The notes under the pieces were generated by a model. The model was given only the letters and a program-made list of their open reading frames with translations, was not told the origin of the DNA and did not search any database. From assembly GCF_000504285.1 (NCBI RefSeq), contig NZ_KI632511.1:1857372-1921371 (forward strand): a DNA stretch of 64,000 nucleotides. The letters are read 5' to 3'. Position 1 is the first letter of the stretch. Each line of letters opens with the position of its first letter. The position numbers and the translations under genes are program-made. Shown here in pieces: positions 12,676-28,654 of this stretch. This DNA comes from Actinospica robiniae DSM 44927. Lineage in GTDB: Bacteria; Actinomycetota; Actinomycetes; Streptomycetales; Catenulisporaceae.

Positions 12676-13197
12676 ATGAAGAAGCCCACCCCTCGCAAGA
12701 CCGCGCTCCTCGGCAGTTGCGCCATGGCATTCGCCGGAGGAATCCTCGCGGCTGGTCCTGCGCACGCCGCTGCATTGCCGCCCCACATCACGTGTAGTTA
12801 CGGGGATGTGGCCAAGTACGACAACGATGGTCTGACTATTCATGGATTCGACTGCACCGGCGGAGAACCCGATCCGGGCTCCGCGGCGCGGGTCACGTTG
12901 ATCAGCGACGACGCCACCTTCGACTGCGAGCGCGCCCAGTTCACTCCCGGTTTCGGTGCTCTTTTCGCCAGTCATTGCACACCCGCCCAGGTTTCCATCT
13001 CTTGCCAGGACGGATACCCGGGCTTAAGAAGCCTGGTCGCGTTCGGATGCACCGGCCTACCTGCTCGGCTGGGCGGCCCGGCGAAGATCACCCTTACCTC
13101 AGGCCCCTCCACCGGCACCTACGAGTGCCGGGTCGTCGTCGCCGCAGACCCGGACAGAGGGGTCATCGCCGCCGAGGACTGCGATCGCGCCCGCTAG
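12676..13197 (+). CDS. Small secreted protein with eight cysteines
   Basis: A 173-residue protein with a clear Sec signal peptide (positive KKPTPRK start, hydrophobic core, AHA cleavage region near residue 31). The mature part holds eight cysteines spaced through its length (TCS, DCT, DCE, HCT, SCQ, GCT, ECR, DCD), consistent with four disulfides in an exported beta-rich domain. I do not recognise the family. It is divergent from the DUF4331 gene with 245 bases between; a promoter region is expected there but no element is clear. Confidence 0.65.
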   Translation: MKKPTPRKTALLGSCAMAFAGGILAAGPAHAAALPPHITCSYGDVAKYDNDGLTIHGFDCTGGEPDPGSAARVTLISDDATFDCERAQFTPGFGALFASHCTPAQVSISCQDGYPGLRSLVAFGCTGLPARLGGPAKITLTSGPSTGTYECRVVVAADPDRGVIAAEDCDRAR

Positions 13198-14118
13198 CGA
13201 CGCGTGCCTTCCTCCTGCGAGGCTTTGTGCGCGGCGTAGTTCGCCGCGGTGCGCATGAAGGCGCGGATGGCCTGGCCGGTGTGCGATTTACGCCAGATGG
13301 GGGCCCACTCGATCGGCGTGCTGGGTTCAAGGGGCACGCAGGTGACGCCGGGCCGGGGATAGTGCTGCTCGGTGTGGGCGCCGACGATGAGGGCGCCGAG
13401 TCCGGAGGCGGTCAGGGCCAGCGCCTCTTGGAAGGTCTCGAACTGCGGGCCGGGGGCGATCGGAACGCCCTGGGGGGTGCGCTCGAGCCGCCGGTCGGCG
13501 GGCCAGTCGCCCGGGCCGCGACCGGCGATGCGCAGCATGGGTATGTCCGCGAGGTCCTCGAAGCCGACGCCTTCCCGGTCGGCGAGTGGGTGCGCGGCCG
13601 GGAGCATGAGCATGCGCCGTTCGCGCACCAGCACGGGGCCCACCGCCAGATCGGGTTCCTCGACCGGCAGGCTGAGCACGAGCACGTCGAGTTCGCCGGC
13701 GCGGAGCCGGTCGAGCGCATCGACGATCTGCGCTTCACGGGTGCGCACGGCGACGTCAGGGTGCTGTTTCCGGAAGACGGCGACCACCTCGCTGAGCACC
13801 GTGCCAGCCAGACCGCTGACGAATCCGGCGCTGAGCCGGCTGGAATCGCCCCGCGCCGTGGCGGCGGCCGCGCGGTCGATTCCGGCGTTGATCATCTCGT
13901 AGCCCGGGCGCAGGTCGCCGAGCAGCTGCCGGCCGAGATCGGTGAGTCGGACCCGACGGCTGGTGCGTTCGAACAGCGGAGCGCCGATCTGCCGTTCCAG
14001 CGCTCTTACGGTCTGGCTGATCCGTCCGGTGGGTCACATGCAGACGCTCCGCAGTGCGGTCGAAGTGCAGCTCCTCGGCCAAAGTCAGGAAGGCCTCAAG
14101 CTCAAGGCGTTCGATCAC
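13194..14118 (-). pseudogene. LysR-family regulator, frameshifted in the HTH
   Basis: The effector-binding half (from MINAGIDRAAAATARG to the end at 13194) is intact and typical of LysR regulators. The helix-turn-helix begins in another frame from GTG at 14118: IERLELEAFLTLAEELHFDRTAERLHV. The two join perfectly (HVTTGRISQTVRALERQ) if one base is removed from the GGG run at 14031-14033. As written, the protein would lose its DNA-binding domain. The gene is divergent from a truncated epimerase, itself broken, which favours real decay of a former regulator-target pair over a chance read error. The stop overlaps the end of the secreted cysteine-rich gene by 4 bases. Confidence 0.75.
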
Positions 14119-14204
14119 CCCGCCCCTCCGGTCCCGATCGTTGAACCCGGCTAAACGCCGGTTCCGCCATCACGCGTTGATCATCGTATCGGCAGCCTGG
14201 ATGC

Positions 14205-14574
14205 TGGTCACAGGCACACCTCTACGGCCCGGGCACCTGGTACCGGCGCGGCGGCCTGGTCGCCGAGAACCTGGCGGCCGGAACGATGCCGGCAACCGAC
14301 GCGGTCAGTTCCTTCCTCCACGTGCAGGACGCCGCGCACGCGGCCATCAAGGCCCTGGCGTGGCCGCCCGGACCGGTGAACATCGTCGACGACGAGCCCG
14401 CACCCGGCCGCGTCTGGGATTCCCGTCTTGTGCGAAGCCCTCGGGCTCACCCCGCCCGCGCCGACCCCAGGCCGCGCCGGATGGGAACGCGGCGCGGACA
14501 ACACCTGGGCCCGCGACATCCTCGGCTGGCAGCCGCTTCACCCGTCCTGGCGCGCCGGCTTCGCCCAGCTCTGA
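14205..14574 (+). pseudogene. NAD-dependent epimerase, 3' remnant with frameshift
   Basis: Coding similarity begins at about LYGPGTWYRRGGLVAENLA and includes DAVSSFLHVQDAAHAAIKAL and PVNIVDDEPAPGR, the C-terminal half of an extended SDR/epimerase. The frame then changes at a GGG run near 14417-14419; in the next frame it continues as LCEALGLTPPAPTPGRAGW to WQPLHPSWRAGFAQL and a stop at 14574. The N-terminal Rossmann half is missing. It sits head-to-head with the broken LysR gene. Confidence 0.7.
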
Positions 14575-14592: not shown

Positions 14593-15510
14593 CTACTTCA
14601 GCGTTCCGGCCGTGAGGCCTGCCTGGACCTGCCGCTGGAAGGAGAGGTAGACGGCGAGCATGGGCAGCATCGCGATGGTCATCCCGGCGAACAGGGCGGG
14701 GAGGTCTCCGGCGTAGCCCTGGGCTGCGAGCAGGTTCACCAGGCCCTGGGTCAGCATCTGGTGCGCCTCGGTGTCACCGCGCTGGCGCTGCATCAGGACG
14801 ACGGGAAGGAGGTACTGATTCCACTGCCCGAGGACGTTGAAGATGCCGACCGAGATCAGCCCGGGCTTGGCCATGGGCAACATGACCTGGAAGAACGCCC
14901 GGGTGTGCGAGCAGCCGTCGACGAAAGCCGCCTCGTGGACGGCCGTGGGCAAGGTCTGGAAGAACGCGTGCAGGAAGAACACGGTGAACGGCAGGGAGAA
15001 GGAGATGTAGACCAGCGCGAGACCGGTGTACGAGTTGAGCATGTGGAAGTTGTTGACTTGGAAGAACAGGGGCACCAGGGCCAGGTAGATCGGGAACATC
15101 GCACCGGCGACGAAGCCGTAGTAGACGGTGCGGTTGCCGCGGAACTTGTAGCGGGCGAGCACGTAGGCGGCCATCGCGCCGAAGAGCATGGTGCCGGTGA
15201 CGGACATGGACATGACGATCAGCGTGTTGCCGAAGTAGCCGCCGATTCCGGTGGACCAGGCTCGGCCGAACGCGTCGAAGGACCAGTTCGTCGGCCAGGC
15301 CCAGGCGTCGGCGCCGATCTGGAGGTTTGTTTTGAACGAGCCGAGGACGACCCACAGCAGCGGAAACGCGATCATGAAGGCCCAGAGGGCGAGGAAGCCG
15401 TGGGAGAAGACGTTCAGGACCCGGCCGTCCTGGCCGAACGTCCGCAGACGCCCGTCGCCGGGCTCCTTGCGCACTCGCGTCCCGGACGGGGCCTCGGTCT
15501 TGGTGGTCAT
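14593..15510 (-). CDS. ngcG: Sugar ABC transporter permease, MalG/NgcG type
   Basis: A 305-residue inner-membrane permease of the CUT1 family. About six transmembrane helices follow a cytoplasmic N-terminus. The EAA loop that docks the ATPase is visible as EAAFVDGCSHTRAFFQVMLP with PGL further on. It lies 15 bases downstream of the partner permease, and with it forms the channel fed by the NgcE-like binding protein. There is no ATPase gene in the operon, as is usual for actinobacterial CUT1 systems that use a shared MsiK ATPase encoded elsewhere. The symbol rests on the NgcE-like neighbour; the cargo is inferred. Confidence 0.85.
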   Translation of the reverse strand: MTTKTEAPSGTRVRKEPGDGRLRTFGQDGRVLNVFSHGFLALWAFMIAFPLLWVVLGSFKTNLQIGADAWAWPTNWSFDAFGRAWSTGIGGYFGNTLIVMSMSVTGTMLFGAMAAYVLARYKFRGNRTVYYGFVAGAMFPIYLALVPLFFQVNNFHMLNSYTGLALVYISFSLPFTVFFLHAFFQTLPTAVHEAAFVDGCSHTRAFFQVMLPMAKPGLISVGIFNVLGQWNQYLLPVVLMQRQRGDTEAHQMLTQGLVNLLAAQGYAGDLPALFAGMTIAMLPMLAVYLSFQRQVQAGLTAGTLK

Positions 15511-15525: not shown

Positions 15526-16470
15526 TCAGTACTCGACGCTGTCGCGTCGGGTGAAGCGGAGCATGACGAACGAGAGCACGAGGGTGATCGCGAAGATCAC
15601 CACGCCCATGGCGCAGGCATAGCCCGCCTTGCCGAAGGTCAGGAAGTTGCGCATCAGGTAGGTCGCGAGGACCTCGCTGCGGTAGTCGGGGCCGCCTCCG
15701 TAGCTTGAGCCCTGGGTCAGGTTGGCGACCAGGGCGAAGCCGTCCATCGCGGCGATCGACAGGTAGACCCAGGCGGTCTGGACGGAGTCCCACAGCAGCG
15801 GGACGGTCAGGCGCAGGAACGTCTGGCCGCGTCCGGCGCCGTCGAGCAGGGCGGCTTCGAAGATCTCCTTGGGTATCGACTGCATCGCGGCGGAGAACAG
15901 CACCATGTAGAACCCGACCCACTGCCAGATCAGGATCGCCAGGATGCACCACAGCACGGCGTTCGGATTCGCCAGCCAGCCGAGGGGGTGGGCGGCGTCG
16001 ATCAGGCCCAGTTTCACGCCGATGCCGTTGAACAGTCCCGCGGAGTCCGAACGGTACGCCTCCTGAAAGATGATGATCAGGATGGCGACCGACAGGACCT
16101 GGGGTAGGAAGAAGACGACGCGGTAGAAGGCCGCGCCACGCACGCCGCGGATCCCCGCAGCTCCGGCGCGGCCGCCCGCGTTGAGCATGAAGGCGAAGAA
16201 CAGGGCCAGGACGATGGTGATCGGTGGGAGCACGATCAGCATCAGCAGGTTGTGCCACAGCGCGGAGCGGAACACGCTGTCGCCGAACAGCTCCTTGTAG
16301 TTCTGCAGGCCCACGAACTTGGTCGGCGGCGTCAGTCCGGACCAGTTCGTCAGCGAGTAGCCGAAGGTCTCGAGGTACGGCCACAGGACGAACAGCGCGT
16401 ACAGGCCGATCGGACAGATGAGGAAGGCTGTGACGAACAGGTTCTTCCGGAGGTTTTTGCTCAGTCGCAT
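15526..16470 (-). CDS. ngcF: Sugar ABC transporter permease, MalF/NgcF type
   Basis: A 314-residue CUT1 permease with an N-terminal hydrophobic helix (LFVTAFLICPIGLYALFVL), a periplasmic-type WSGLTPPTKFVGLQNY loop and an EAA motif (FEAALLDGAGRGQTFLRLTVP). It pairs with the downstream NgcG-like permease. It starts 94 bases after the stop of the binding-protein gene, with an 11-bp stem hairpin in the gap that probably lowers permease expression relative to the binding protein. Confidence 0.85.
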   Translation of the reverse strand: MRLSKNLRKNLFVTAFLICPIGLYALFVLWPYLETFGYSLTNWSGLTPPTKFVGLQNYKELFGDSVFRSALWHNLLMLIVLPPITIVLALFFAFMLNAGGRAGAAGIRGVRGAAFYRVVFFLPQVLSVAILIIIFQEAYRSDSAGLFNGIGVKLGLIDAAHPLGWLANPNAVLWCILAILIWQWVGFYMVLFSAAMQSIPKEIFEAALLDGAGRGQTFLRLTVPLLWDSVQTAWVYLSIAAMDGFALVANLTQGSSYGGGPDYRSEVLATYLMRNFLTFGKAGYACAMGVVIFAITLVLSFVMLRFTRRDSVEY

Positions 16471-16564: not shown

Positions 16565-17998
16565 TCAGCTGCGGGTGTACTTCTGGATGGACGAGTCGGC
16601 AGCGGTCTTGTCCGCGGCGGCCTGCGCCTGCGTGATGAAGTCGGCCGGCTTGATCCGACCGGCCATCAGGTCGCCCATCGCGTTCTCCAGGTCCGTCTCC
16701 AGCTGCGGGTACCAGTTGGCATAGTTCCAGGTGATGACGTTGTCCCCGGCCGCCGCGATCAGGTCGCTGGAGGACTTGGTGCCCGGCGTCATCGCGGCCG
16801 CGACTTCCGGGGTGATGGCGCCGCGCACGACCGGCAGTGACTTGGCGTCGAGTGCGAAGGCCGCGCCGCCGGCCTTCGAGCACATGATCCGCATCAGCTC
16901 GAGCCCGCCGGCCGGGTTCGCGGCCTTCGCCGGGACGATGAACGCCTCAGCCGCGACGGCCCGCACGGACGTGGCGGGCATGACGTCGCCGGCGACCTTC
17001 GGCATCGGCATGACGGCCATGTCGAACCCGGCCGGGGTGATCCCGTCCATCTCCTGCTCCAGCCACGATCCGCAGGGGACGAAAGCCGCCTTGCCCTCGG
17101 TCCAGGCGGTCTCCGCCTGGATGTTGGTCAGACCCTCGGTGCCCGGGAGCATGTAGCCGTCAGACACGAGCGAGTAGATCGCCTCGACCGACCGGACGAC
17201 GGCCTCCTCGTGCCAGGCGTTCGGCTTGAGGTTGTCGATCTTCTTCATGATGTCCTGGCCGCCGGCCTTGGCGACCATGTCCATGAGCGGCACCATCATG
17301 TAGAACGGGTACTTGCCCTGGTGGGCCCACGGGGATATACCGGCGGCCTTGATGCTCTGGCACAGGGTCGTGAACTCGTCCCAGGTCTGCGGGACCGTCC
17401 AGCCGTGCTTCGCGAACAGCGTCTTGGAGTACCAGACGCCGTACACGGTGAGCGCGTAGTTGAGCGAGTACATGCTCGTACCGATGAGGCCGGCCTCGAC
17501 GGTGCCGGGGACCAGCGTGTCGCGCACCGTCTTCGACGGGTCGTCGATCGAGGGCGCGTCGAGCAGGGCGTCGAGGTTGGTCAGCTGCCCGTTGGTGTGC
17601 AGCACGTTCAATTGAAGCTTCTGCGCGCCGTCGTCGAAGATGAAGTCGGGCGGCGAACCGGCGTTGAAGCGGGGCTGGAGGTCACCGGTGACGTTCTGGC
17701 CGCCGCCGGCGGAGATCTTGGCGGACGGGAACTTCTTCTGGTACATCGCCTGGAAGGCCTTGGCGAAACCGCTGCCGAGGCCGCCTTCGAAGAAGTAGAC
17801 GTCCAGCGGCGCCGTCGACTCGACCCCGAACGGGTTGCCGGCGCTCTTCGCACCGGTGGGGGCCGCGCCGGCGCCGGTGCCTCCGGCGCAGGCGGAGAGC
17901 AGACCGGCGGTCGGAACCGTCATCGCGGCGATGGTCGCGGAACGAACCAGGACTTGCCTGCGGGTGCCGGCGGTGGAGGTGCCATGAGCGAAGGACAT
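16565..17998 (-). CDS. ngcE: NgcE-like N-acetylglucosamine/chitobiose-binding lipoprotein
   Basis: A 477-residue solute-binding lipoprotein. The N-terminus has a twin-arginine-like RRQVLVRS and a lipobox LSAC, so it is probably Tat-exported and lipid-anchored. The mature part begins NPFGVESTAPLDVYFFEGG and carries LQPRFNAGSPPD, DAPSIDDPSKTVRDTL and YGVWYSKTLFAKHGW, all characteristic of the NgcE (TIGR03851-like) family for GlcNAc and diacetylchitobiose. The start MSFAHGTS has AAGGAG about 7 bases upstream; the longer open frame upstream has no signal. It heads the transporter part of the operon, 109 bases after the Gfo/Idh gene. The exact ligand is inferred from family. Confidence 0.85.
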   Translation of the reverse strand: MSFAHGTSTAGTRRQVLVRSATIAAMTVPTAGLLSACAGGTGAGAAPTGAKSAGNPFGVESTAPLDVYFFEGGLGSGFAKAFQAMYQKKFPSAKISAGGGQNVTGDLQPRFNAGSPPDFIFDDGAQKLQLNVLHTNGQLTNLDALLDAPSIDDPSKTVRDTLVPGTVEAGLIGTSMYSLNYALTVYGVWYSKTLFAKHGWTVPQTWDEFTTLCQSIKAAGISPWAHQGKYPFYMMVPLMDMVAKAGGQDIMKKIDNLKPNAWHEEAVVRSVEAIYSLVSDGYMLPGTEGLTNIQAETAWTEGKAAFVPCGSWLEQEMDGITPAGFDMAVMPMPKVAGDVMPATSVRAVAAEAFIVPAKAANPAGGLELMRIMCSKAGGAAFALDAKSLPVVRGAITPEVAAAMTPGTKSSSDLIAAAGDNVITWNYANWYPQLETDLENAMGDLMAGRIKPADFITQAQAAADKTAADSSIQKYTRS

Positions 17999-18107
17999 CG
18001 TCGTTCTCCTTGAATCGGTGGCGGGAAAGGGGCGCCGGAGATCGGCGCCGGAAGCAGAAGGTCGGTGCGCGCGGCCGGTCGGGCGGCGGTGCGGCGGAAG
18101 GCGCCGC

Positions 18108-19385
18108 TCAGGCGTCCAGAGCGTCCAGACGAACCACGGTTCCGGTGCGCCGGGCGCTTTCGGCGGCCCAGACCACGCGGTGACCGGCCAGGCTGGTGCG
18201 GGCATCGGAGATCAGGGTGCTCGGGTCCCCGCTCGCGACGGCGGTCAGAAACGCATCGATCAGGGCGTCGTCGCCGCCGCCGTGCCCGTCCGCGGCGGAC
18301 GCGCCCGGGTGGCTGTCGGAAGTCCGGTACTCCTCGGTCTCATCGGTCACGAAGTCGTGCAGGCGCACGATCTCGCCGTCGCCCTCCACCGTGCCGCGGG
18401 TGCCGAAGATCCTCGTCTTGCGGTGGACGAGCTCGGTGAACGCGGTCATCGTGAACGAGGCGGTCGTGCCGCTCGGGAACTCCAGGCTCACGACCTGGTG
18501 GTCGACGACGTCGTTGTCGCAGGCGTAGACGCAGCGGCCGTACGGGCTGTGCTCCAGCGCCGCCAGCACCCCCGCCTCGGACATGTCCTCGGTCACCATC
18601 GAGAGCGGCCAGTACTCCCGCAGCGGATCGCCGACGCAGCCCAGGTAGATCCGCTTCGCGGAGTACGCACACGAGGATTCGACAGGGCAGCTCACGCACC
18701 GGTCCGTGGCTCCCTCGGGCTTGTGCTCTGGGGTGAAGTGGCTCAACGAGCCGAAGGAGGAGACCCTGCCGGGTGACTCGCCCACAATGTACATCAACCA
18801 GTCGATGTCATGACAGGACTTGGTCAGCAGCATCGGCCCCGACTCGTCCTCGCGCCGCCAGTTGCCGCGCACGTACGAGTGCGCCTGATGCCACCAGCCG
18901 ACCGGCTCCAGGTGTTCGACGCTGACGATCGTCCCGATGCGGCCGGAGTCGAGCACCCGCTTGAGCAGTCGTGTGTACGGCGTGTAGCGCAGGACGTGGC
19001 CGACGGCGAAGACCACCCCGGCTTCCTCCACCGCGTCGATGATCCGTGCGCAGTCCTGCTCGCTCAGCGCCATCGGCTTCTCCAGCAGCATCGGATAGCC
19101 GCGACGCGCCGCCAGGACGGCGTGCTCGGCGTGGCAGGCGTCGGGCGACGAGATGACCACGGCGTCCGCCGCGCGGTCGACGGCCAGCAGGTCGTATACG
19201 TTCTCGAACACCAGTTCAGGGGCGATCTCGAACTCGGCCGCGAACCGCTCCCGGGCCTCCGGGCGCGGCTCGGCGACCGCGGCGATGCGCGCGCCCTGCG
19301 CCCGAGCCCGGCGCGCGTAGCCGAGCCCGCGCACTCCGGCACCGATTACCGCCAGACTGGTGCCGTGATGATTTGCGGAACCCAT
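18108..19385 (-). CDS. Gfo/Idh/MocA family oxidoreductase
   Basis: A 425-residue NAD(P)-dependent oxidoreductase. The Rossmann motif GAGVRG is at residues 15-20 and the family EKP motif at 102-104. The substrate domain has LLTKSCHDIDWL, and an unusual cysteine-rich insert (CVSCPVESSC followed by a Cys near the end of the segment) of the kind seen in one actinobacterial subgroup. It probably oxidises or epimerises a sugar taken up by the following transporter. It is the first gene of the Gfo/Idh-ngcEFG operon; its promoter shares the ROK operator region. Confidence 0.88.
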   Translation of the reverse strand: MGSANHHGTSLAVIGAGVRGLGYARRARAQGARIAAVAEPRPEARERFAAEFEIAPELVFENVYDLLAVDRAADAVVISSPDACHAEHAVLAARRGYPMLLEKPMALSEQDCARIIDAVEEAGVVFAVGHVLRYTPYTRLLKRVLDSGRIGTIVSVEHLEPVGWWHQAHSYVRGNWRREDESGPMLLTKSCHDIDWLMYIVGESPGRVSSFGSLSHFTPEHKPEGATDRCVSCPVESSCAYSAKRIYLGCVGDPLREYWPLSMVTEDMSEAGVLAALEHSPYGRCVYACDNDVVDHQVVSLEFPSGTTASFTMTAFTELVHRKTRIFGTRGTVEGDGEIVRLHDFVTDETEEYRTSDSHPGASAADGHGGGDDALIDAFLTAVASGDPSTLISDARTSLAGHRVVWAAESARRTGTVVRLDALDA

Positions 19386-19400
19386 GGTTGAGCCCTCCCT

Positions 19401-19440
19401 GACCTGGTGCTAATTTATTACCTGAGATATGCAACTGGGG
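19401..19440 (-). promoter_or_regulatory. Operator-promoter module in front of the Gfo/Idh-ngcEFG operon
   Basis: Between the divergent Gfo/Idh and ROK genes. The 20-base site at 19421-19440 (CCTGAGATATGCAACTGGGG on the plus strand) matches, at 17 of 20 positions, the reverse complement of the palindrome at 20830-20849. Read toward the operon it is followed by an AT-rich -10-like TAATAAAT, and the similarity to the second site continues through that element to a shared GGTC. Its position suits repression of the operon and perhaps autoregulation of the ROK gene. Confidence 0.65.
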
Positions 19441-19488
19441 GAATTAAATGGATCGGCCGTCCCCGCCGTCAAGAGGAGCGCCCACGCC

Positions 19489-20679
19489 GTGACCGAATCG
19501 TTTCCAAGCTCCGCCCGTGATCAGACGCTGCTGCGCCGTGTCAATGAACTGTCGATCCTGGCCGTATTGCGAGGCCAGGCAGCGCGGCCGCTGCGCGAGA
19601 TCTCCGACACCACGGGGTTGTCCTGGCGCACGACGCAGGTGGTCGCCGAGATCCTGGACGAGCACGGTTGGCTCGTAGAGACGGAGGCCGACGACGGCTC
19701 CGGCGGCAGGCGTGCGGTGGGCCGTCCGGCCCGCAGGTACCGTTTCCGCGCCGAGGCCGGGCACGTGGTCGGCCTCGACGTGGGCACACACCAGGTCCAG
19801 GTGTTCGTCGCCGACCTGGCCGCCACCATCGTGGGCCGCCACCGCCTCGAGGTCTCGCCGACCGATGACGCCCCCACCCGGCTCGCCGCCGTGGAGCGGA
19901 CGCTGCTGGGCGCCCTCGCCGATGCGGGCCTGGAGCCGCAGGCCGTATGGGCGGCGGCCATGGGGGCCAGCGGTGTCGTCGGCCCGGACGGAACGGTCAC
20001 CGCCTCGGCTCTGCTGCCGGGCTGGCGCGGCCTGAATCCGGCGAAGGCGCTCGACTCCGTGCTGCCGTGCACCGTGGAGGTGGCGAACGACGCGAATCTC
20101 GCGGCGCTGGCCGAACGGTGGCGTGGCCACCGGGCCGAGACGATGATCTACGTCCTGGCCGGAGCTCGCCTGGGCACCGGATTGGTCATCGGCGGCCAGT
20201 TGCACCGCGGCGCGGCCGGCGCGGCCGGCGAGATCGGAGCCCTGCGCGAGATCGGCTGGCACGACGCGGCCGAGCGCCTGGCCGCGACCGCGCTCGGCCT
20301 CGACTCGCCCACCGGCCGCGGCAACGCGGCGACGCGGGTATTCCAGGCCGCCCGGGACGAAGACCCCGCCGCGCTCGCCGCGGTGGACCGGTTCGCCGCC
20401 GACATCGCGCGCGGCGTGACCGCCATGGTGCTCACCATCGACCCTGAGCTGGTGGTCCTGGGCGGCGGCTTCGCGCATGCCGCCGACCTGCTGGTACCCC
20501 GGCTCGCTGTGGAACTGGCCGCGACCTGCCTGCATACGCCGCGGGTGGAGGGCTCCGTGCTGGGCGACGACGCGGTCGCCCTCGGCGCGCTACGCCTCGC
20601 CCTGGACACCGTCGACCAGCGGATGACCTCGCTGGACAGCAACACGCCGCTGACCCACGGAGCGATCCGCGGGTGGTGA
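19489..20679 (+). CDS. ROK-family transcriptional regulator
   Basis: A 396-residue one-component regulator. The N-terminal winged helix (LREISDTTGLSWRTTQVVAEIL) is followed by a ROK sugar-kinase-like domain with VGLDVGTHQVQVFV, GAAGEIGAL and LGGGFAHA. The zinc motif CxCGxxGC of classical ROK proteins is absent. I chose GTG at 19489 because AGAGGAG lies about 10 bases upstream; an in-frame ATG at 19429 lies inside the operator and lacks a ribosome site. It is divergent from the NgcE-type transporter operon, which it most likely controls in response to an amino sugar or oligosaccharide. A strong terminator follows. Confidence 0.85.
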   Translation: MTESFPSSARDQTLLRRVNELSILAVLRGQAARPLREISDTTGLSWRTTQVVAEILDEHGWLVETEADDGSGGRRAVGRPARRYRFRAEAGHVVGLDVGTHQVQVFVADLAATIVGRHRLEVSPTDDAPTRLAAVERTLLGALADAGLEPQAVWAAAMGASGVVGPDGTVTASALLPGWRGLNPAKALDSVLPCTVEVANDANLAALAERWRGHRAETMIYVLAGARLGTGLVIGGQLHRGAAGAAGEIGALREIGWHDAAERLAATALGLDSPTGRGNAATRVFQAARDEDPAALAAVDRFAADIARGVTAMVLTIDPELVVLGGGFAHAADLLVPRLAVELAATCLHTPRVEGSVLGDDAVALGALRLALDTVDQRMTSLDSNTPLTHGAIRGW

Positions 20680-20695
20680 CGGCGTAGTCCGCCAC

Positions 20696-20739
20696 CGGGC
20701 GGGCTCGGCGACCGAAGGGTCGCCGAGCCCGCCCGTTTT
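20696..20739 (+). terminator. Intrinsic terminator after the ROK gene
   Basis: A perfect 18-bp stem (20696-20713 with 20718-20735) with a GAAG loop is followed by TTTT. It separates the ROK gene from the promoter of the secreted protein. Confidence 0.9.
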
Positions 20740-20828
20740 CGTGCGCCGGCCACGAGGCCGCCTCCGGACACGGTTCGATAACGGCGGCGGGGGCCGTCTT
20801 GACGACGCAGAGTCCCGCCCATTTACTT

Positions 20829-20870
20829 CCCTCAGTTACATATCTGAGGTACAAAATTTAATCCCTGGTC
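20829..20870 (+). promoter_or_regulatory. Second operator-promoter module, upstream of the secreted CBM32 protein
   Basis: Holds a 20-bp palindrome at 20830-20849: CCTCAG, eight bases, CTGAGG. It is followed by a -10-like TACAAAAT. It matches the site upstream of the Gfo/Idh gene at 17 of 20 operator bases and in the adjoining -10 region, in the same orientation toward its target gene. This links the secreted protein, about 97 bases downstream, to the same regulator. Confidence 0.7.
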
Positions 20871-20966
20871 CGAGCCCGGCAACCTCCGCTGCGCGGCGCA
20901 CCTCGTCGCGAGCCGCGGCCTCAGGGCTCGCATCCCACGACCTATCCCTCGCTAGGAGTCCTTGCA

Positions 20967-23609
20967 GTGCCCCGTTCGCGCAACACACTTCTGGTGGCGC
21001 TCGCCGCTCTCGCGGCGGGCGTGCTCGTGCCCGGTACCGCGTCGGCGACGGTTCCGCTGCCGGCCGGCACCGCCTACACGCTCTCCGTGGGCCCCGCGGG
21101 CCCGAACAACTTCGCCTCCGACTCGCCGTCCAGCCCCTTCCTCGACAAGGACGGGACGTTCTACACGCAGCAGTCGGTCTCGGACTACAGCTCCACCGCC
21201 ACACGCACCTGGGCCTTCGACACGGGCACGAACTTCGACGACGCCTCCGACGACGCCACCCTCAACAGCGACAACGGCGACACCACCGCGCTGTGCAACA
21301 ACAGCCCCACCGGACTGGAGGCGACCGGCACGCCGTCCGCATCCGCCTACGCCGAGCCGAACTACTGCGACCTGATCGGCACTTGGGTCGACCCCGACAC
21401 CGGCAACTGGTACGGGCTCGTGCACAACGAGTTCACCCCGGAGCCGTTCGGCGACGGCATGCACTACGACTCGATCGACTACGCCGAGTCGACCGACGAG
21501 GGCGCGAGCTGGACCATCGTCGGGCACGCGCTCACCTCCCCGTACAGCACGACCCGGGGCGACACGACGGCGTTCCCGAACCAGACCTACTACTACGGCG
21601 ACGGCGACCAGCGCCTGTACGTCGACACCGCATCAGGGTATTTCTACGTCTACTACGGCTCCAGCGTGATCGACAAGCCGGGCTGCGCCGGCGCGATCCA
21701 GCGGCTCGAGCACGTCGCCCGTGCCCCGATCTCGGGCAAGATGGCGACCGGCACCTGGCAGAAGTGGTACGACGGCTCGTGGTCGCAGCCGGGAGTCGGC
21801 GGCCAGGAGAGCACCATCGTGCCGGTCAGCTCCGCCAACTCGAACGGCTACGACCCCGTCTCCAGCGAGTACAACCCGGACAACGCCGGCTGCGTCAGCG
21901 CCCAACTGGCCGCCGGCACCATCCCCGCCCAGTCGCCGCTGCTCTACATGAGCGTCGCCTACGACGCCTACCTCGGGCTGTACATCGCCGGGGCCAACCC
22001 CGAGAACACCAACAGCGTCGCCGCGCACCCGGAGCAGTTCTTCGTCACCGACAACCTCGCCACCGAGAAGTGGACCGAGGTCGCCGACACCGGCTCCACC
22101 CTCTACCAGGACTACTGGTACCACTGGTTCGTCGACACCGGGAGCCTGACCACTGGCACGATCGTCGGCAAGACCTTCCGCAGCTACTGCGATTACGGCT
22201 GCAGCGCGGATAGTAGCGCGGGTGATTCCGCGACCGGTCCCTCGGAGTACCGCGACATGACGCTCGACTCCACCACGCCCGCGGCCGCACCGGTCGACCT
22301 GCACGACGCCTATCGGATCACCAGCGCCGCCGGAGACACCCTCACCCAGGTGTCCGGAACCTCGCGGACCACCTCGCAGACCGGGCACTCCGGCTCGTCG
22401 CTCACGGACTGGGTTTTCACCTCGCTGGGTGACGGCTCCTACCAGATCACCAACGCCCGCACCGGGGACGCTCTCGGCGTCGCCTCCACCAGCACGGCCA
22501 CCCGCGCCTGGGGCACCGCGACCACCGCGACCCTGCCGGACGCCGCCGACGTCGGCCAGCAGTGGTTCTTCGTCCGGACCACCGACTCCAACGGCAGGCC
22601 GCTCGGCTCCTACCGGCTCGTCAACCGCTACAGCGGGCTGGTTCTGGGCCTGTCGGACGACAACTCCAAGCCCCTGGCCGAGACCACGCCCACGCGCAGC
22701 TGGACCGACACCATCGCCCACTCCGTCGGCAAGGCGCGCTCAGCAGCCGAGCAGGAACTGGCCTTCACCGCCGTCGGCCCCGCACCGATCCCGGACGTGG
22801 CACTCGGCAAGCCCGCCACCGCGCAGAGCTCGCAGGGCACGAACACCCCGAACCTGGCCGTGGACGACGCGAGCGGCAAAAGCTACTGGGGCGCTGCCTC
22901 GACCTCGCAGTGGTGGCAGGTCGACCTGCTCGGTGACTACAAGCTCAACGACGTCGCCATCACCGACTACGTCGACGGCAACCGCTACGACCACTACACC
23001 ATCCAGGCCAGCACCGACGGCGTCACCTGGACGACCATCGCCACGAAGAGCAACAAGAAGGCTGCCACGAGAGCAGGCGACAGCTACCCAGTCAGGGTCA
23101 CAGCACGCTACCTGCGCGTCAACATGACCTCGGGCTCCGCCAACACCGGCGTCCGCATCACCGACTTCAAGGCCTTCGGCACACCGGTGGCGGCCGCGGA
23201 CACGGACGTCGCGTTCAACAAGACCGCGACCGCCGAGAGCTCGCAGGCCGGGCACGCCCCGGGCATGGCTGTCGACGACGATCCGAGCAGCGAAAGCTAC
23301 TGGAGCGCGGACCCCGCGCCGCAGTGGTGGCAAGTCGACCTGGGAAGCAACTACAACCTCGACGACGTCACCATCACCAACTACGTCGACGGCACCCGCT
23401 ACTACGACTACAACATCCAAGCCAGCACCGACGGCGTCACCTGGACGACCATCGCCACCAAGAACAACGACACGGTCGCGACCAGCTCCGGCGACAGCTA
23501 CGCGGTGAGCGTCGCAGCACGCTATCTGCGCGTCAACATGGCCTCGGACTCCGCCAACACCGGCGTCCACATCGCCAACTTCGTGGCTATGGGTACACCC
23601 GCGTCATAA
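20967..23609 (+). CDS. Large secreted carbohydrate-active protein: Asp-box domain, ricin-type and two CBM32 domains
   Basis: An 880-residue exported protein. A Sec signal peptide ends near ASA at residue 27. Residues about 30-440 look like a beta-propeller with an Asp-box (STDEGASWTI) as in sialidase-like folds, but I cannot assign a glycoside hydrolase family. Residues about 455-610 resemble a ricin-type trefoil (YRITSAAGDTL, SYQITNARTGDAL, SYRLVNRYSGLVLGL). Residues about 615-750 and 755-880 are two similar F5/8-type (CBM32) domains, each with QWWQVDL and RYLRVNM. GTG start with AGGAG upstream. It lies next to the ROK regulator and shares its operator, suggesting it releases the sugar imported by NgcEFG. 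Confidence 0.78.
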   Translation: MPRSRNTLLVALAALAAGVLVPGTASATVPLPAGTAYTLSVGPAGPNNFASDSPSSPFLDKDGTFYTQQSVSDYSSTATRTWAFDTGTNFDDASDDATLNSDNGDTTALCNNSPTGLEATGTPSASAYAEPNYCDLIGTWVDPDTGNWYGLVHNEFTPEPFGDGMHYDSIDYAESTDEGASWTIVGHALTSPYSTTRGDTTAFPNQTYYYGDGDQRLYVDTASGYFYVYYGSSVIDKPGCAGAIQRLEHVARAPISGKMATGTWQKWYDGSWSQPGVGGQESTIVPVSSANSNGYDPVSSEYNPDNAGCVSAQLAAGTIPAQSPLLYMSVAYDAYLGLYIAGANPENTNSVAAHPEQFFVTDNLATEKWTEVADTGSTLYQDYWYHWFVDTGSLTTGTIVGKTFRSYCDYGCSADSSAGDSATGPSEYRDMTLDSTTPAAAPVDLHDAYRITSAAGDTLTQVSGTSRTTSQTGHSGSSLTDWVFTSLGDGSYQITNARTGDALGVASTSTATRAWGTATTATLPDAADVGQQWFFVRTTDSNGRPLGSYRLVNRYSGLVLGLSDDNSKPLAETTPTRSWTDTIAHSVGKARSAAEQELAFTAVGPAPIPDVALGKPATAQSSQGTNTPNLAVDDASGKSYWGAASTSQWWQVDLLGDYKLNDVAITDYVDGNRYDHYTIQASTDGVTWTTIATKSNKKAATRAGDSYPVRVTARYLRVNMTSGSANTGVRITDFKAFGTPVAAADTDVAFNKTATAESSQAGHAPGMAVDDDPSSESYWSADPAPQWWQVDLGSNYNLDDVTITNYVDGTRYYDYNIQASTDGVTWTTIATKNNDTVATSSGDSYAVSVAARYLRVNMASDSANTGVHIANFVAMGTPAS

Positions 23610-23616
23610 ACCCCAA

Positions 23617-23659
23617 GCGGCTGTCCGGGCAGCGGTGACCCCGCCGCCCGGACAGCCGC
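23617..23659 (+). terminator. Hairpin terminator after the secreted CBM32 protein
   Basis: Perfect 14-bp arms GCGGCTGTCCGGGC (23617-23630) and its complement (23646-23659) with a 15-base loop, immediately after the stop. It lies between convergent genes, so it may work in both directions. Confidence 0.75.
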
Positions 23660-23703
23660 GTCGTTCAGCACCGATCGTTGTCCCCCGCCATCGCCTCTCC
23701 GTG

Positions 23704-25083
23704 TCAGCGCACGAAGCTGGCAAGCACCTCGTTGAACGCCTCAGTGGAGCTCGGGTGGGTGTAGATCGCGTCGCGTAGAGTGCTCGCTGTCGTGCCGGTG
23801 CGCATGGCCAGCGCCACTGTGTTGATCAGTTCCTGACCGTCGACGCTGAGCAGCGCGGCACCGAGGATCTCGTCGGTATCCGCATCCACGACGAACTTCA
23901 TCATCCCTCGCGTCTCGCCGACGATGCGGGCTCGGGGCATCGCCGCCATGGCCGCGATCGGCTTCGACGCGATGCGCACGGCCCTTCCGGCGGGGCGCGC
24001 CTGGTCTTCGGTCATGCCGACCCGGGCGAGCGGCGGGGTGGTGAACAGGGTGGTGGGCACGGCCACGCGGTCGGCCGTCGACCGCTTGCCCTCGCCGAGG
24101 AGCTGGTCGGCCACGATCCGGGAGTCGTCAAGGGAGATGTAAGTGAACTGCGGCCCGCCGTTCACATCGCCGAGGGCGAAGATGTGCGGCCGGCTGGTGC
24201 GCAGGTGCTCGTCGACGGCGATGGCACCGCGCTCGGTGGTGCGCACGCCGGCTGCCTCGAGTCGCAGGTCCCCGGTGCGTGGGGCGCGCCCGACGGCCGC
24301 GAGCACGACATCCGCGTGAACGAACTGCTCCCCCGCCTCGCCGGACGTGTAGTACACGAGCGCGTCGTCAGCGGTGTCTTCGACCCTGGTGACGCGGGCG
24401 CCGGTGACCAGCTTGATGCCGTCGTCCGTGAGGATCTGCTCGACGGCACGCGCGACGTCCTCGTCCTCGGACCGCAGGATCCGCTCGGCGCCCTCAAGAA
24501 CGGTGACCTCCGTCCCGTACCGGCTGAGCATCGCGGCGAACTCGATGCCCTGGTATCCCCCGCCGATCACGACCAGGCGACGGGGCAGATCGGGCCGGCT
24601 GAGCAGGTCGGTCGTCGTCGCCAGCCGCGCGCTGCCGCGCAGACCGGGGATGTCCGGGACGTTCTGCGAGGCACCGGTGTTGATGACGATCGTGTCCGCG
24701 GTGATCTCCAGCCGGTCCTGCCCGGCGGTGACCTCGACGCGCTTGTCGTCGAGGAAGGCCGCGGTGCCGGTGATCACGATGACCGACTCGATGGAGTCGA
24801 GCATCTCGAAGTTCTTGCCACGCATCCCCGAGGTCAGCGCCGCGGTCGAGGCGATCGCCGCGGTGTACCAGGCTTCGGGGTCGGCGTCGTCCGGTCGCGT
24901 CGTGGCGTGGTGGATGAGGGACTTGCTCGGTACGCAGCCGATGTTGATGCAGGTGCCGCCGTACATCTGGTCGGACTGCTCCACCATGGCGACGCGCTGA
25001 CCGCGCCGCCCCAGGGCCGCCGCCAGCGACTTGCCGCCCTTGCCGAACCCGATGACCAGCAGATCGACGTGCATGTTGTCCAT
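23704..25083 (-). CDS. rclA: RclA-like flavin disulfide oxidoreductase
   Basis: A 459-residue FAD/NAD(P) disulfide reductase of the mercuric-reductase/RclA group. The flavin site GFGKGGKSLA is at the start, the redox pair is GGTCINIGCVPSK (Cys45, Cys50), the second nucleotide site is VVIGGGYQGIEFA, and the catalytic HP...E pair is HPSSTEAFNE at the C-terminus. Segments such as GGPQFTYISLDDSRIV and LLGEGKRST closely follow E. coli RclA, a copper/hypothiocyanite-type reductase of the reactive-chlorine response, more than mycothione reductase. It diverges from an AraC regulator, just as rclA and rclR do. The symbol is by homology recalled, not searched. Confidence 0.8.
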   Translation of the reverse strand: MDNMHVDLLVIGFGKGGKSLAAALGRRGQRVAMVEQSDQMYGGTCINIGCVPSKSLIHHATTRPDDADPEAWYTAAIASTAALTSGMRGKNFEMLDSIESVIVITGTAAFLDDKRVEVTAGQDRLEITADTIVINTGASQNVPDIPGLRGSARLATTTDLLSRPDLPRRLVVIGGGYQGIEFAAMLSRYGTEVTVLEGAERILRSEDEDVARAVEQILTDDGIKLVTGARVTRVEDTADDALVYYTSGEAGEQFVHADVVLAAVGRAPRTGDLRLEAAGVRTTERGAIAVDEHLRTSRPHIFALGDVNGGPQFTYISLDDSRIVADQLLGEGKRSTADRVAVPTTLFTTPPLARVGMTEDQARPAGRAVRIASKPIAAMAAMPRARIVGETRGMMKFVVDADTDEILGAALLSVDGQELINTVALAMRTGTTASTLRDAIYTHPSSTEAFNEVLASFVR

Positions 25084-27368: not shown

Positions 27369-28478
27369 CTAGACCCTGTAGCGGAGGATTGCGGCGCAAC
27401 CGTCGTCCGCCTTGGTGCCCGGCAGCAGCTCGCTGAAGGACGCGTCGCCGGCGGTGGCGGCGCGCAGCATCAGGGGGCCGGCCTTGGCCTCGAACGCGCC
27501 GTCGGCCGCTTCGCCGAGTCCTTCGCGGCTGGTGGCGATCATCCGCTGGTCCTGCGTGGTCGCCCACTTCATCGGGTCCGCGGCGCGGTCCGCGGACAGC
27601 AGCAGCGTCTCGACCGCGCCTTCGGTCAGGGCCTGGCTTACGGCGGGGATGCCGTGAACCGCGCGGCCTTCGCCGAGGGCGTCGCTGTACTCGGCCATCA
27701 CCTTGCGGTGACTGGCGAGTGAGGCTTCCGCGAGAGCCTGGTCGACTGATGCGCGCATCGCGTTCTCCGCGCTCTTCCCGCCCCGGCCGCCCGCGACCTC
27801 CACGGCGTCCGCGTCCACGTTCAGCGCGGCCAGCTGCTCGTGGAACAGCGGCAGCGCCTTGGGGTCGCCGGCGACGAACACGACTGCCGCGCCGACCTCG
27901 GCTGCGGCCTCGGCCACTTCGCGGGCGACCCCGGCCGCGTTGCTCTCCCACGCGTTCACCGAGCGCCGGTGGTACGAGGCCATCGACGGCCCGCCGGCGC
28001 CGACCCGGTTCAGGTGCAGCGTGGTGCCGTCGTAGGTGCGGTGCGAGTCGGGGTCGAACGCGCCGGCCGGATACGCGGTGATGTCGCCACCCGAACGGTC
28101 CAGCGCCACGACGATGTGCGCCATCTGGTGATCGAGATCGAGCACCGTCTCGAGCGGGTCGACGACCGGCCCGACCATCGCCTGGCTCTGCGCGGGCGGC
28201 TGGGAGAGCGAGAAAGCGCCGAGCACCCTCCCGCCCGCCGCGAACAGCGACTCGCCCTGCGGGCCCGCGATGTGGGGGGAAGAGCCGACCTCGGGATCGA
28301 GCGCGGCCAGCGAGGGCTCGTCGGCCCCCTGCCCCTCGAGCATGCGGCGCAGATCCCGCCAGGTCAGCTCGAGCCTCTTGTCCGCGTCCTGGTCCTGCCG
28401 GCTCGTGTCCACATGTACCGTGACGACCTCGGCGTTCGGCGGGGCGGTGTAGAGCGGGCGCAGAAGTGCGAGTTCCAT
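27369..28478 (-). CDS. Vms1/Ankzf1-type peptidyl-tRNA hydrolase (Rv2629-like, eRF1-fold)
   Basis: A 369-residue protein of the bacterial archaeo-eukaryotic release-factor (baeRF) group, as in M. tuberculosis Rv2629. It starts MELALLRPLYTAPPNAEVVTVHVDTS. A VVFVAGDPKALPLFHEQL segment and a C-terminal ETLLLSADRAAD / ATAGDASFSELLPGTKADDGCAAILRYRV stretch fit the family. It may release peptidyl-tRNA from stalled ribosomes. The start was placed at MELALL, with GGAG upstream; the upstream open frame shows no similarity. Confidence 0.8.
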   Translation of the reverse strand: MELALLRPLYTAPPNAEVVTVHVDTSRQDQDADKRLELTWRDLRRMLEGQGADEPSLAALDPEVGSSPHIAGPQGESLFAAGGRVLGAFSLSQPPAQSQAMVGPVVDPLETVLDLDHQMAHIVVALDRSGGDITAYPAGAFDPDSHRTYDGTTLHLNRVGAGGPSMASYHRRSVNAWESNAAGVAREVAEAAAEVGAAVVFVAGDPKALPLFHEQLAALNVDADAVEVAGGRGGKSAENAMRASVDQALAEASLASHRKVMAEYSDALGEGRAVHGIPAVSQALTEGAVETLLLSADRAADPMKWATTQDQRMIATSREGLGEAADGAFEAKAGPLMLRAATAGDASFSELLPGTKADDGCAAILRYRV

Positions 28479-28622
28479 CGCGATCTCCGTTCGACGATTG
28501 CGGACCGATCGGTCGACAACGGCTCCATCCTCACGCCACCGCCGACCGGGCGACATTCGGCGCTCACTCGAACGGCGGTAGGGCACGACGCGCGCGGCCC
28601 GGGCCGCCACGGCACGTGACAA

Positions 28623-28654
28623 GGGTCGGGCCCGGCTCACGCCGGGCCCGACCC
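28623..28654 (-). terminator. Terminator hairpin after the S53 peptidase gene
   Basis: Perfect 14-bp stem GGGTCGGGCCCGGC / GCCGGGCCCGACCC with a TCAC loop, 33 bases beyond the stop of the minus-strand peptidase gene. Confidence 0.75.

Follow-up and report, generated by a model that had tools for sequence, protein, structure and literature searches.

A 64,000-nucleotide window of the Actinospica robiniae DSM 44927 genome probably encodes, as judged from its sequence, a local ROK repressor regulon for extracellular glycan use, in which repression would be relieved by the imported product of a secreted enzyme. The first-pass annotation had proposed that one operator-promoter module links the ROK gene, a Gfo/Idh-ngcEFG operon and a secreted CBM32 protein, and this predicted linkage was borne out by comparison: the module stands at both places in 6/6 genomes containing the ROK gene and was found nowhere else in the loci scanned.

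The ROK gene sits between a divergent Gfo/Idh-SBP-permease-permease operon (19385 to 14593, minus strand), in which no ATPase gene was seen, and the secreted-protein gene on the plus strand (Table 1). The solute-binding protein (SBP) scores above the NCBIfam NgcE cut-off, and the permeases are NgcF-like and NgcG-like by position. In the ROK protein, P0001, the Pfam ROK model matched residues 94–373 (118.1 bits, cut-off 22.9); the N-terminus gave no Pfam HTH match, and the NCBIfam NagC model aligned from residue 49 with 52.3 bits against a cut-off of 650. A terminator-like stem between the ROK and enzyme genes suggests a separate transcript from operator 2, and the enzyme gene thus probably has its own promoter. 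Elsewhere in the window, 13194–14123 (minus strand) holds an apparently broken LysR-like regulator gene, with its substrate-binding part and start region in different frames, and 14200–14570 (plus strand) an apparent frameshifted and truncated remnant of an NAD-dependent epimerase-like gene, both read by eye; a Bacterial archaeo-eukaryotic release factor family 2 protein is encoded at 27369–28640 (minus strand; Pfam 2.2e-31).

Table 1. Features of the ROK locus, with coordinates given as positions in the window.
Feature	Coordinates	Strand	Basis
ABC permease P0006, NgcG-like by position	14593–15510	-	Pfam BPD_transp_1
ABC permease P0005, NgcF-like by position	15526–16470	-	Pfam BPD_transp_1
NgcE-type solute-binding protein	16565–17998	-	TIGR03851 chitin_NgcE, 539.4 bits, cut-off 399.65, scored on the longer open frame 16565–18205; start at 17998 placed by eye, from AAGGAG before it
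Gfo/Idh/MocA oxidoreductase P0003, first gene of importer operon	18108–19385	-	Pfam GFO_IDH_MocA, 1.5e-19
Possible ROK promoter TTGAGC-N17-TAATTT, divergent from gfo	19388–19416	+	Inferred by eye
Operator 1 (predicted; CCTGAGATATGCAACTGGGG), core 19424–19437 = CAGTTGCATATCTC on minus strand	19421–19440	-	Sequence comparison
gfo-ngc promoter: -35 TTGACG 19472–19467, spacer 18, -10 TTTAAT 19448–19443	19443–19472	-	Alignment, 6/6 genomes
ROK-family regulator P0001, GTG start	19489–20679	+	Pfam ROK, 6.9e-34
Intrinsic terminator-like stem 3′ of ROK gene, 18 pairs, TTTT tail	20696–20735	+	
Enzyme promoter: -35 TTGACG 20799–20804, spacer 17, -10 TTTACT 20822–20827	20799–20827	+	Alignment
Operator 2 (predicted; reverse complement CCTCAGATATGTAACTGAGG), core 20833–20846 = CAGTTACATATCTG	20830–20849	+	Sequence comparison
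Secreted protein P0002, 880 residues	20967–23609	+	Pfam; AF2 model of residues 26–440

The 17/20 agreement first noted between operator 1 and the reverse complement of operator 2 was recomputed and confirmed, and the claimed continuation of the similarity past the 20-mers was likewise reproduced, with 26/30 identical bases in the best 30-mer and 30/36 in the best 36-mer. When the two intergenic stretches were subjected to 1,000 dinucleotide shuffles, the best scores were 16/20, 23/30 and 25/36, so that the real pair exceeded all 1,000. Searched as a 30-mer with up to 3 mismatches, the sequence had no further occurrence in the 9.92-Mb genome beyond this pair (reversed control, 0). Operator 2 is the good palindrome it had been taken for, with 8/10 base pairs; operator 1 is a poor one, with 5/10. 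The half-site pattern CCTCAG-N8-CTGAGG, which had been put forward for finding the regulon across the genome, was rejected as a marker, as it performed no better than chance: its relaxed form gave 7 strand matches in the genome against 9 for the control, and with up to 2 mismatches it gave 5 matches in the window against 4.1 expected. Weaker matches in the window's own genome were seen at C1:6914682 (3 mismatches) and C1:758469 (1 mismatch), and a third target at either is unlikely because each is overlapped by a stop-free frame (240 and 590 codons, respectively), although in GC-rich DNA such frames are no proof of coding.

Read toward the target gene, each site consists of a -35 (TTGACG), a spacer, a -10, 5 nt and then the operator core (CAGTTACATATCTG at the enzyme promoter, CAGTTGCATATCTC at the gfo promoter), the 5-nt gap depending on the row layout chosen for the alignment. 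The -10-like element described within the shared similarity is thus present at both places, with the correction that a conserved promoter lies upstream of each operator and reads into the enzyme gene and the gfo operon. Transcription is expected to start about 7 nt past the -10, and the start would therefore fall inside the operator. A possible ROK promoter, which in A. durhamensis reads TTGAAC-N17-TAATTT (by eye), faces the opposite way on the other side of operator 1, for which reason this operator may serve both divergent units, ROK and gfo. A generic sigma-70 scan of 18000–24000 found no promoter because it demands an A at -10 position 2, which is absent here; the csnN106 promoter (-35 TTGCGC, -10 TTCAAT, spacer 18) is also described without this A (PMC3048496).

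Relatives of the ROK protein at 63%–86% identity were found by tblastn in five other genomes, namely Actinospica durhamensis (G001), a genome of the same family as the window's own (G008), Spongiactinospora rosea (G859) and two genomes of the latter's family (G996 and G1030). In 6/6 genomes, counting the window's own (G000), the propeller protein gene lies directly downstream of ROK on the same strand, and the module, consisting of TTGAC[GA], 17–18 nt, a TTTACT-like -10 and the operator, precedes both the secreted-protein gene and the divergent importer operon; both sites are therefore present in A. durhamensis and G008, and all 12 promoters have a TTGAC[GA] -35 and a 17–18 nt spacer. Another register is possible for the S. 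rosea importer promoter, and the G1030 enzyme -10 (CTAAAT) was placed by hand. Actinospica has the CAGTTACATATCTG type of core, which changes to CACTTATTTATGTG in the S. rosea group, as a rule at both promoters of a genome; G008 carries one site of each type, so that its two sites are unlike.

For scanning, a promoter-operator pattern was written from the sites of G000, G001, G008 and G859 and matched, allowing up to 3 substitutions, against 104 loci totalling 1.88 Mb. Matches were confined to the six loci containing both ROK and enzyme, two each (12 in total, or 10 distinct sites in five genomes, as L059 and L071 both cover one stretch of A. durhamensis). Among them were the sites of G996 and G1030, all four unseen when the pattern was written. 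No matches were obtained in the reversed sequence or in any of five 200-nt block shuffles. When up to 1 mismatch was allowed, a 25-mer pattern, built from the very sites it was scored on, matched the six whole genomes 12 times and recovered 11 of the 12 expected promoters, against no match in the reversed control; it missed the G1030 enzyme promoter with its aberrant -10 and gave one extra match in the window's own genome. A related pattern, allowed up to 3 substitutions, had no match in the 20 loci examined from among the many ROK relatives of 43%–45% identity that were found. What the aligned sequences show, in a small sample of six genomes from two family groups, is thus that the module is paired, where it stands and how it is spaced, that across the scanned loci it is restricted to this ROK clade, and that ROK and the enzyme go together. 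Orthologs of this ROK protein appear rare: among 394 genomes drawn from the class only the window's own had one, as did 3/250 genomes in the family of S. rosea and 1/4 and 1/11 genomes in two genera, the last two already in the set.

Trees were built from chosen rows, 28 for ROK proteins and 67 for enzyme domains. The six ROKs formed one clade (98/100), outside which fell the relatives of 43%–45% identity, none of them bearing the name Rok7B7, and the six enzymes likewise grouped as a single clade (quick tree, SH-aLRT 100). The two Actinospica genomes paired in both trees, as did the three of the S. rosea group with one another; the trees disagreed on the placement of G008 and on the order within the S. 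rosea three, and the ROK tree carried a long-branch warning. G859 also encodes a second ROK (45% identity; L170, 8636–11025), divergent to a Gfo/Idh 60% identical to that of the window and without the operator pattern, which indicates that a ROK-Gfo pairing exists apart from the secreted enzyme.

Three other explanations of the paired module were weighed. It could be a duplicated promoter segment without shared regulation, as the similarity spans the promoter and its flanks (30/36 bases), but the -35, spacer and core are kept at both places while the surrounding bases differ, which points to selection and makes this extremely improbable. That a different regulator, encoded elsewhere, binds the module with ROK as a bystander is made conceivable by S. 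coelicolor, in which an ngcE operon is reported to answer to another regulator, DasR (PMC6167110). This would fit poorly with the occurrence of the pattern only next to the ROK clade in 104 loci and with the position of one operator just upstream of the ROK gene; moreover, the promoter-operator pattern is absent from paralogous-enzyme loci without this ROK, and a LacI relative is found instead in 16/95 records. We consider a bystander role very improbable. Third, ROK could act not as a repressor but as an activator, or in both ways. In the 12 aligned promoters, however, the operator follows closely on the -10 and the TTGAC -35 is a good one, whereas the usual binding sites of activators are at the -35 or upstream of it. 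Activation or mixed action is quite improbable here, even though ROK regulators can act either way according to the paper on bifidobacterial NagR (PMC9599254).

The first-pass annotation had defined the regulon as secreted enzyme, importer, oxidoreductase and sensor. Of these, ROK, the secreted propeller protein and an ABC importer of some type recur throughout, but neither the NgcE type nor the oxidoreductase is constant. Among the six genomes, the NgcE-type importer is present in Actinospica only and another SBP in the other four, whose scores with the NgcE model (99.5 bits in G008, 112.2 in G859, 118.8 in G996 and 117.4 in G1030) lie below the cut-off of 399.65. In G008 the Gfo/Idh is kept (76%) and the SBP-permease set is different; G859, G996 and G1030 have relatives of the G008 set, preceded by a DUF5107 protein in place of gfo, and no Gfo/Idh relative was found in the stretches of these three genomes that were examined. 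Because the importer varies while ROK, enzyme and operator stay, NgcEFG belongs to the Actinospica branch and not to the regulon as such. GlcNAc or chitobiose, weakly supported as substrate by an importer that is not conserved, was rejected as a sure substrate. An importer swapped while regulator, operator and enzyme stay together warns against reading a substrate from the NgcE name.

The secreted protein P0002 comprises a signal peptide (by eye), a propeller at about residues 35–437, a ricin-type lectin domain and two CBM32-like F5/8C stretches (Pfam F5_F8_type_C, 2 stretches, 5.9e-36), the CBM32 name being taken from matched CBM32 domains in proteins of solved structure and the binding being predicted. 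An AF2 model of residues 26–440 made from 67 sequences gave a confident propeller (pLDDT 88.6, pTM 0.90) and replaced a poor earlier model from 29 sequences (pLDDT 63.9); from its strands and the structure matches, we read the predicted propeller as having five blades. In structure comparison with VIA-align, the top row was the GH183 endo-D-arabinanase EndoMA1 (8hhv; Z 18.7, rmsd 3.6, 277 aligned), GH183 being the family name according to PMC10509167, followed by a putative exo-beta-1,3-galactanase (5flw; Z 17.8, rmsd 3.6, 266 aligned), GH43 galactanases (Z 17.1–17.3), GH117 (4u6d; Z 16.7, rmsd 3.9, 271 aligned) and GH93 (Z 16.2). Rows less than 1 Z apart were treated as tied, and identity in the listed rows was only 7%–14%. 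In Foldseek, GH62 came first (5b6s; E 6.4e-8, TM 0.40 by query) and was followed by sialidases, at query-based TM-scores of about 0.3–0.4. The modeled fold is thus like that of GH43, GH62, GH117, GH183 and sialidases, and the matches single out no family.

Sequence searches placed the domain in none of these families. Residues 26–440 matched 0 Pfam families at E up to 1, including GH183 (DUF4185) and GH43, the whole of P0002 matched no NCBIfam family, and the best E in a profile search against the PDB was 0.36, to unrelated proteins. Over the 67 members, Pfam reported five families only, the best being BNR/Asp-box in 16/67 (E 0.014); as regards a GH33 sialidase, these BNR matches are weak, and sialidases appear among the Foldseek rows. 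Four acidic residues are invariant in 67/67, at D27, D117, E130 and D195 of the aligned domain, corresponding to D52, D142, E155 and D220 of P0002. The likeliest reading of the secreted protein is a glycoside hydrolase. D-arabinan (from EndoMA1, the best Z), beta-1,3-galactan and others were rejected as assigned substrates, since the top matches tie and having a fold in common does not demonstrate activity, and no match was found that would make the protein a chitosanase.

Members of the enzyme family are encoded at 277 places across the genome collection; 80 of these were retained. The family is rare in an even draw of the phylum (2/396 genomes) and occurs in 24/147 relatives of the window's genome, three of the 24 with a ROK of the six-genome clade; the window's genome has three further members. 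A distant propeller subfamily (L155 and L162–L168; 29%–31% domain identity, six members aligned) was found as one match in each of eight genomes. In 95 records, some overlapping, a DUF5107 relative was present within the stretch examined in 21, a G008-type SBP in 15 and a LacI relative in 16. A LacI relative accompanied 10/11 records with the G008-type SBP but without a ROK of the six-genome clade, and LacI was confirmed by Pfam in four records. DUF5107 relatives recur near the secreted propeller family at L160 (3976–5865, minus strand), L161, L093 and 18 other loci, a recurrence (21/95 records) that suggests action on the same glycan as the propeller protein. Near paralogous enzymes, GH95 was present in 6/95 records and GH59 in 4/95, a hint of galactose- or fucose-containing glycans as substrate from too few records to rely on; CBM32 together with GH59 and GH95 near these few paralogs gives a hint only of galactose-rich glycans.

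Three described systems resemble parts of this arrangement. In Streptomyces lividans, CsnR is reported as a ROK repressor of chitosanase genes whose palindromic operator overlaps the chitosanase start site, and the two systems have in common a ROK regulator, a secreted hydrolase (putative here) and a spacer of 18 (PMC3048496). By analogy, the operator here should cover the start site as that of CsnR does, and ROK should be a repressor. However, the CsnR operator as published, CCTCTTCTGGTAGGAAACTTTCCTATCAGT, differs from the operators here, and its site centre, GGTAGGAAACTTTCCTATC, had at most 10/19 matches in the two intergenic stretches (PMC4856308); by operator sequence, the predicted system of the window is not CsnR. 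The CsnR target is moreover a chitosanase, whereas the secreted protein here is a propeller without a known family. With known propeller hydrolases (GH183, GH43, GH117, GH62 and GH33), the secreted domain has the predicted fold in common, but it matches no Pfam family. NagR of Bifidobacterium, a ROK repressor of glycan importers and hydrolases, parallels the proposal made here; 10/11 of its operators are reported to overlap a -10 or -35, GlcNAc and its phosphorylated forms are given as plausible effectors, and it has 11 sites and 29 genes, compared with two sites in the window system (PMC9599254). In S. coelicolor, the gene for Rok7B7 (SCO6008) lies beside ngcEFG, as the ROK gene does in the window, but it is downstream of ngcEFG and its product is said to control xylose genes; the ngcEFG operon there also has no ATPase gene, and MsiK most likely serves it (PMC6167110).

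We propose the following mechanism for the ROK repressor regulon, for which we infer that ROK is the protein that binds, that it represses and regulates its own gene, that its ligand is a sugar and that the secreted protein acts as a hydrolase. Without inducer, ROK would occupy both operators, the first lying where the gfo-ngc and ROK promoters diverge and the second at the enzyme promoter. As the operator core begins just past the -10 and covers the predicted start, binding would block transcription of the importer, the oxidoreductase, the secreted enzyme and probably ROK itself. The secreted enzyme would free a sugar, which the ABC importer would take in; on binding of this sugar to ROK, both operators would be freed and enzyme and importer induced together. 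More tentatively, and with some doubt, the secreted propeller may found a new GH family, and its locus, elsewhere often equipped with LacI and DUF5107-SBP, may have been taken over once by ROK with a new operator, the importer then being exchanged in one branch (NgcEFG, Actinospica) with the ROK-enzyme-operator unit intact.

A literature search by titles and abstract openings, mainly outside subscription journals and extended to DUF5107 and the organism, found no paper describing such a regulon. The kind of gene control is already known from CsnR and NagR. The analysis yields a testable two-promoter ROK regulon with an exact predicted operator, and an unclassified secreted propeller family, present in several actinobacterial families and often near DUF5107, that is probably inducible and linked to a sugar. 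Together, operator and ROK could be used to find the inducer and, from it, the substrate of the enzyme.
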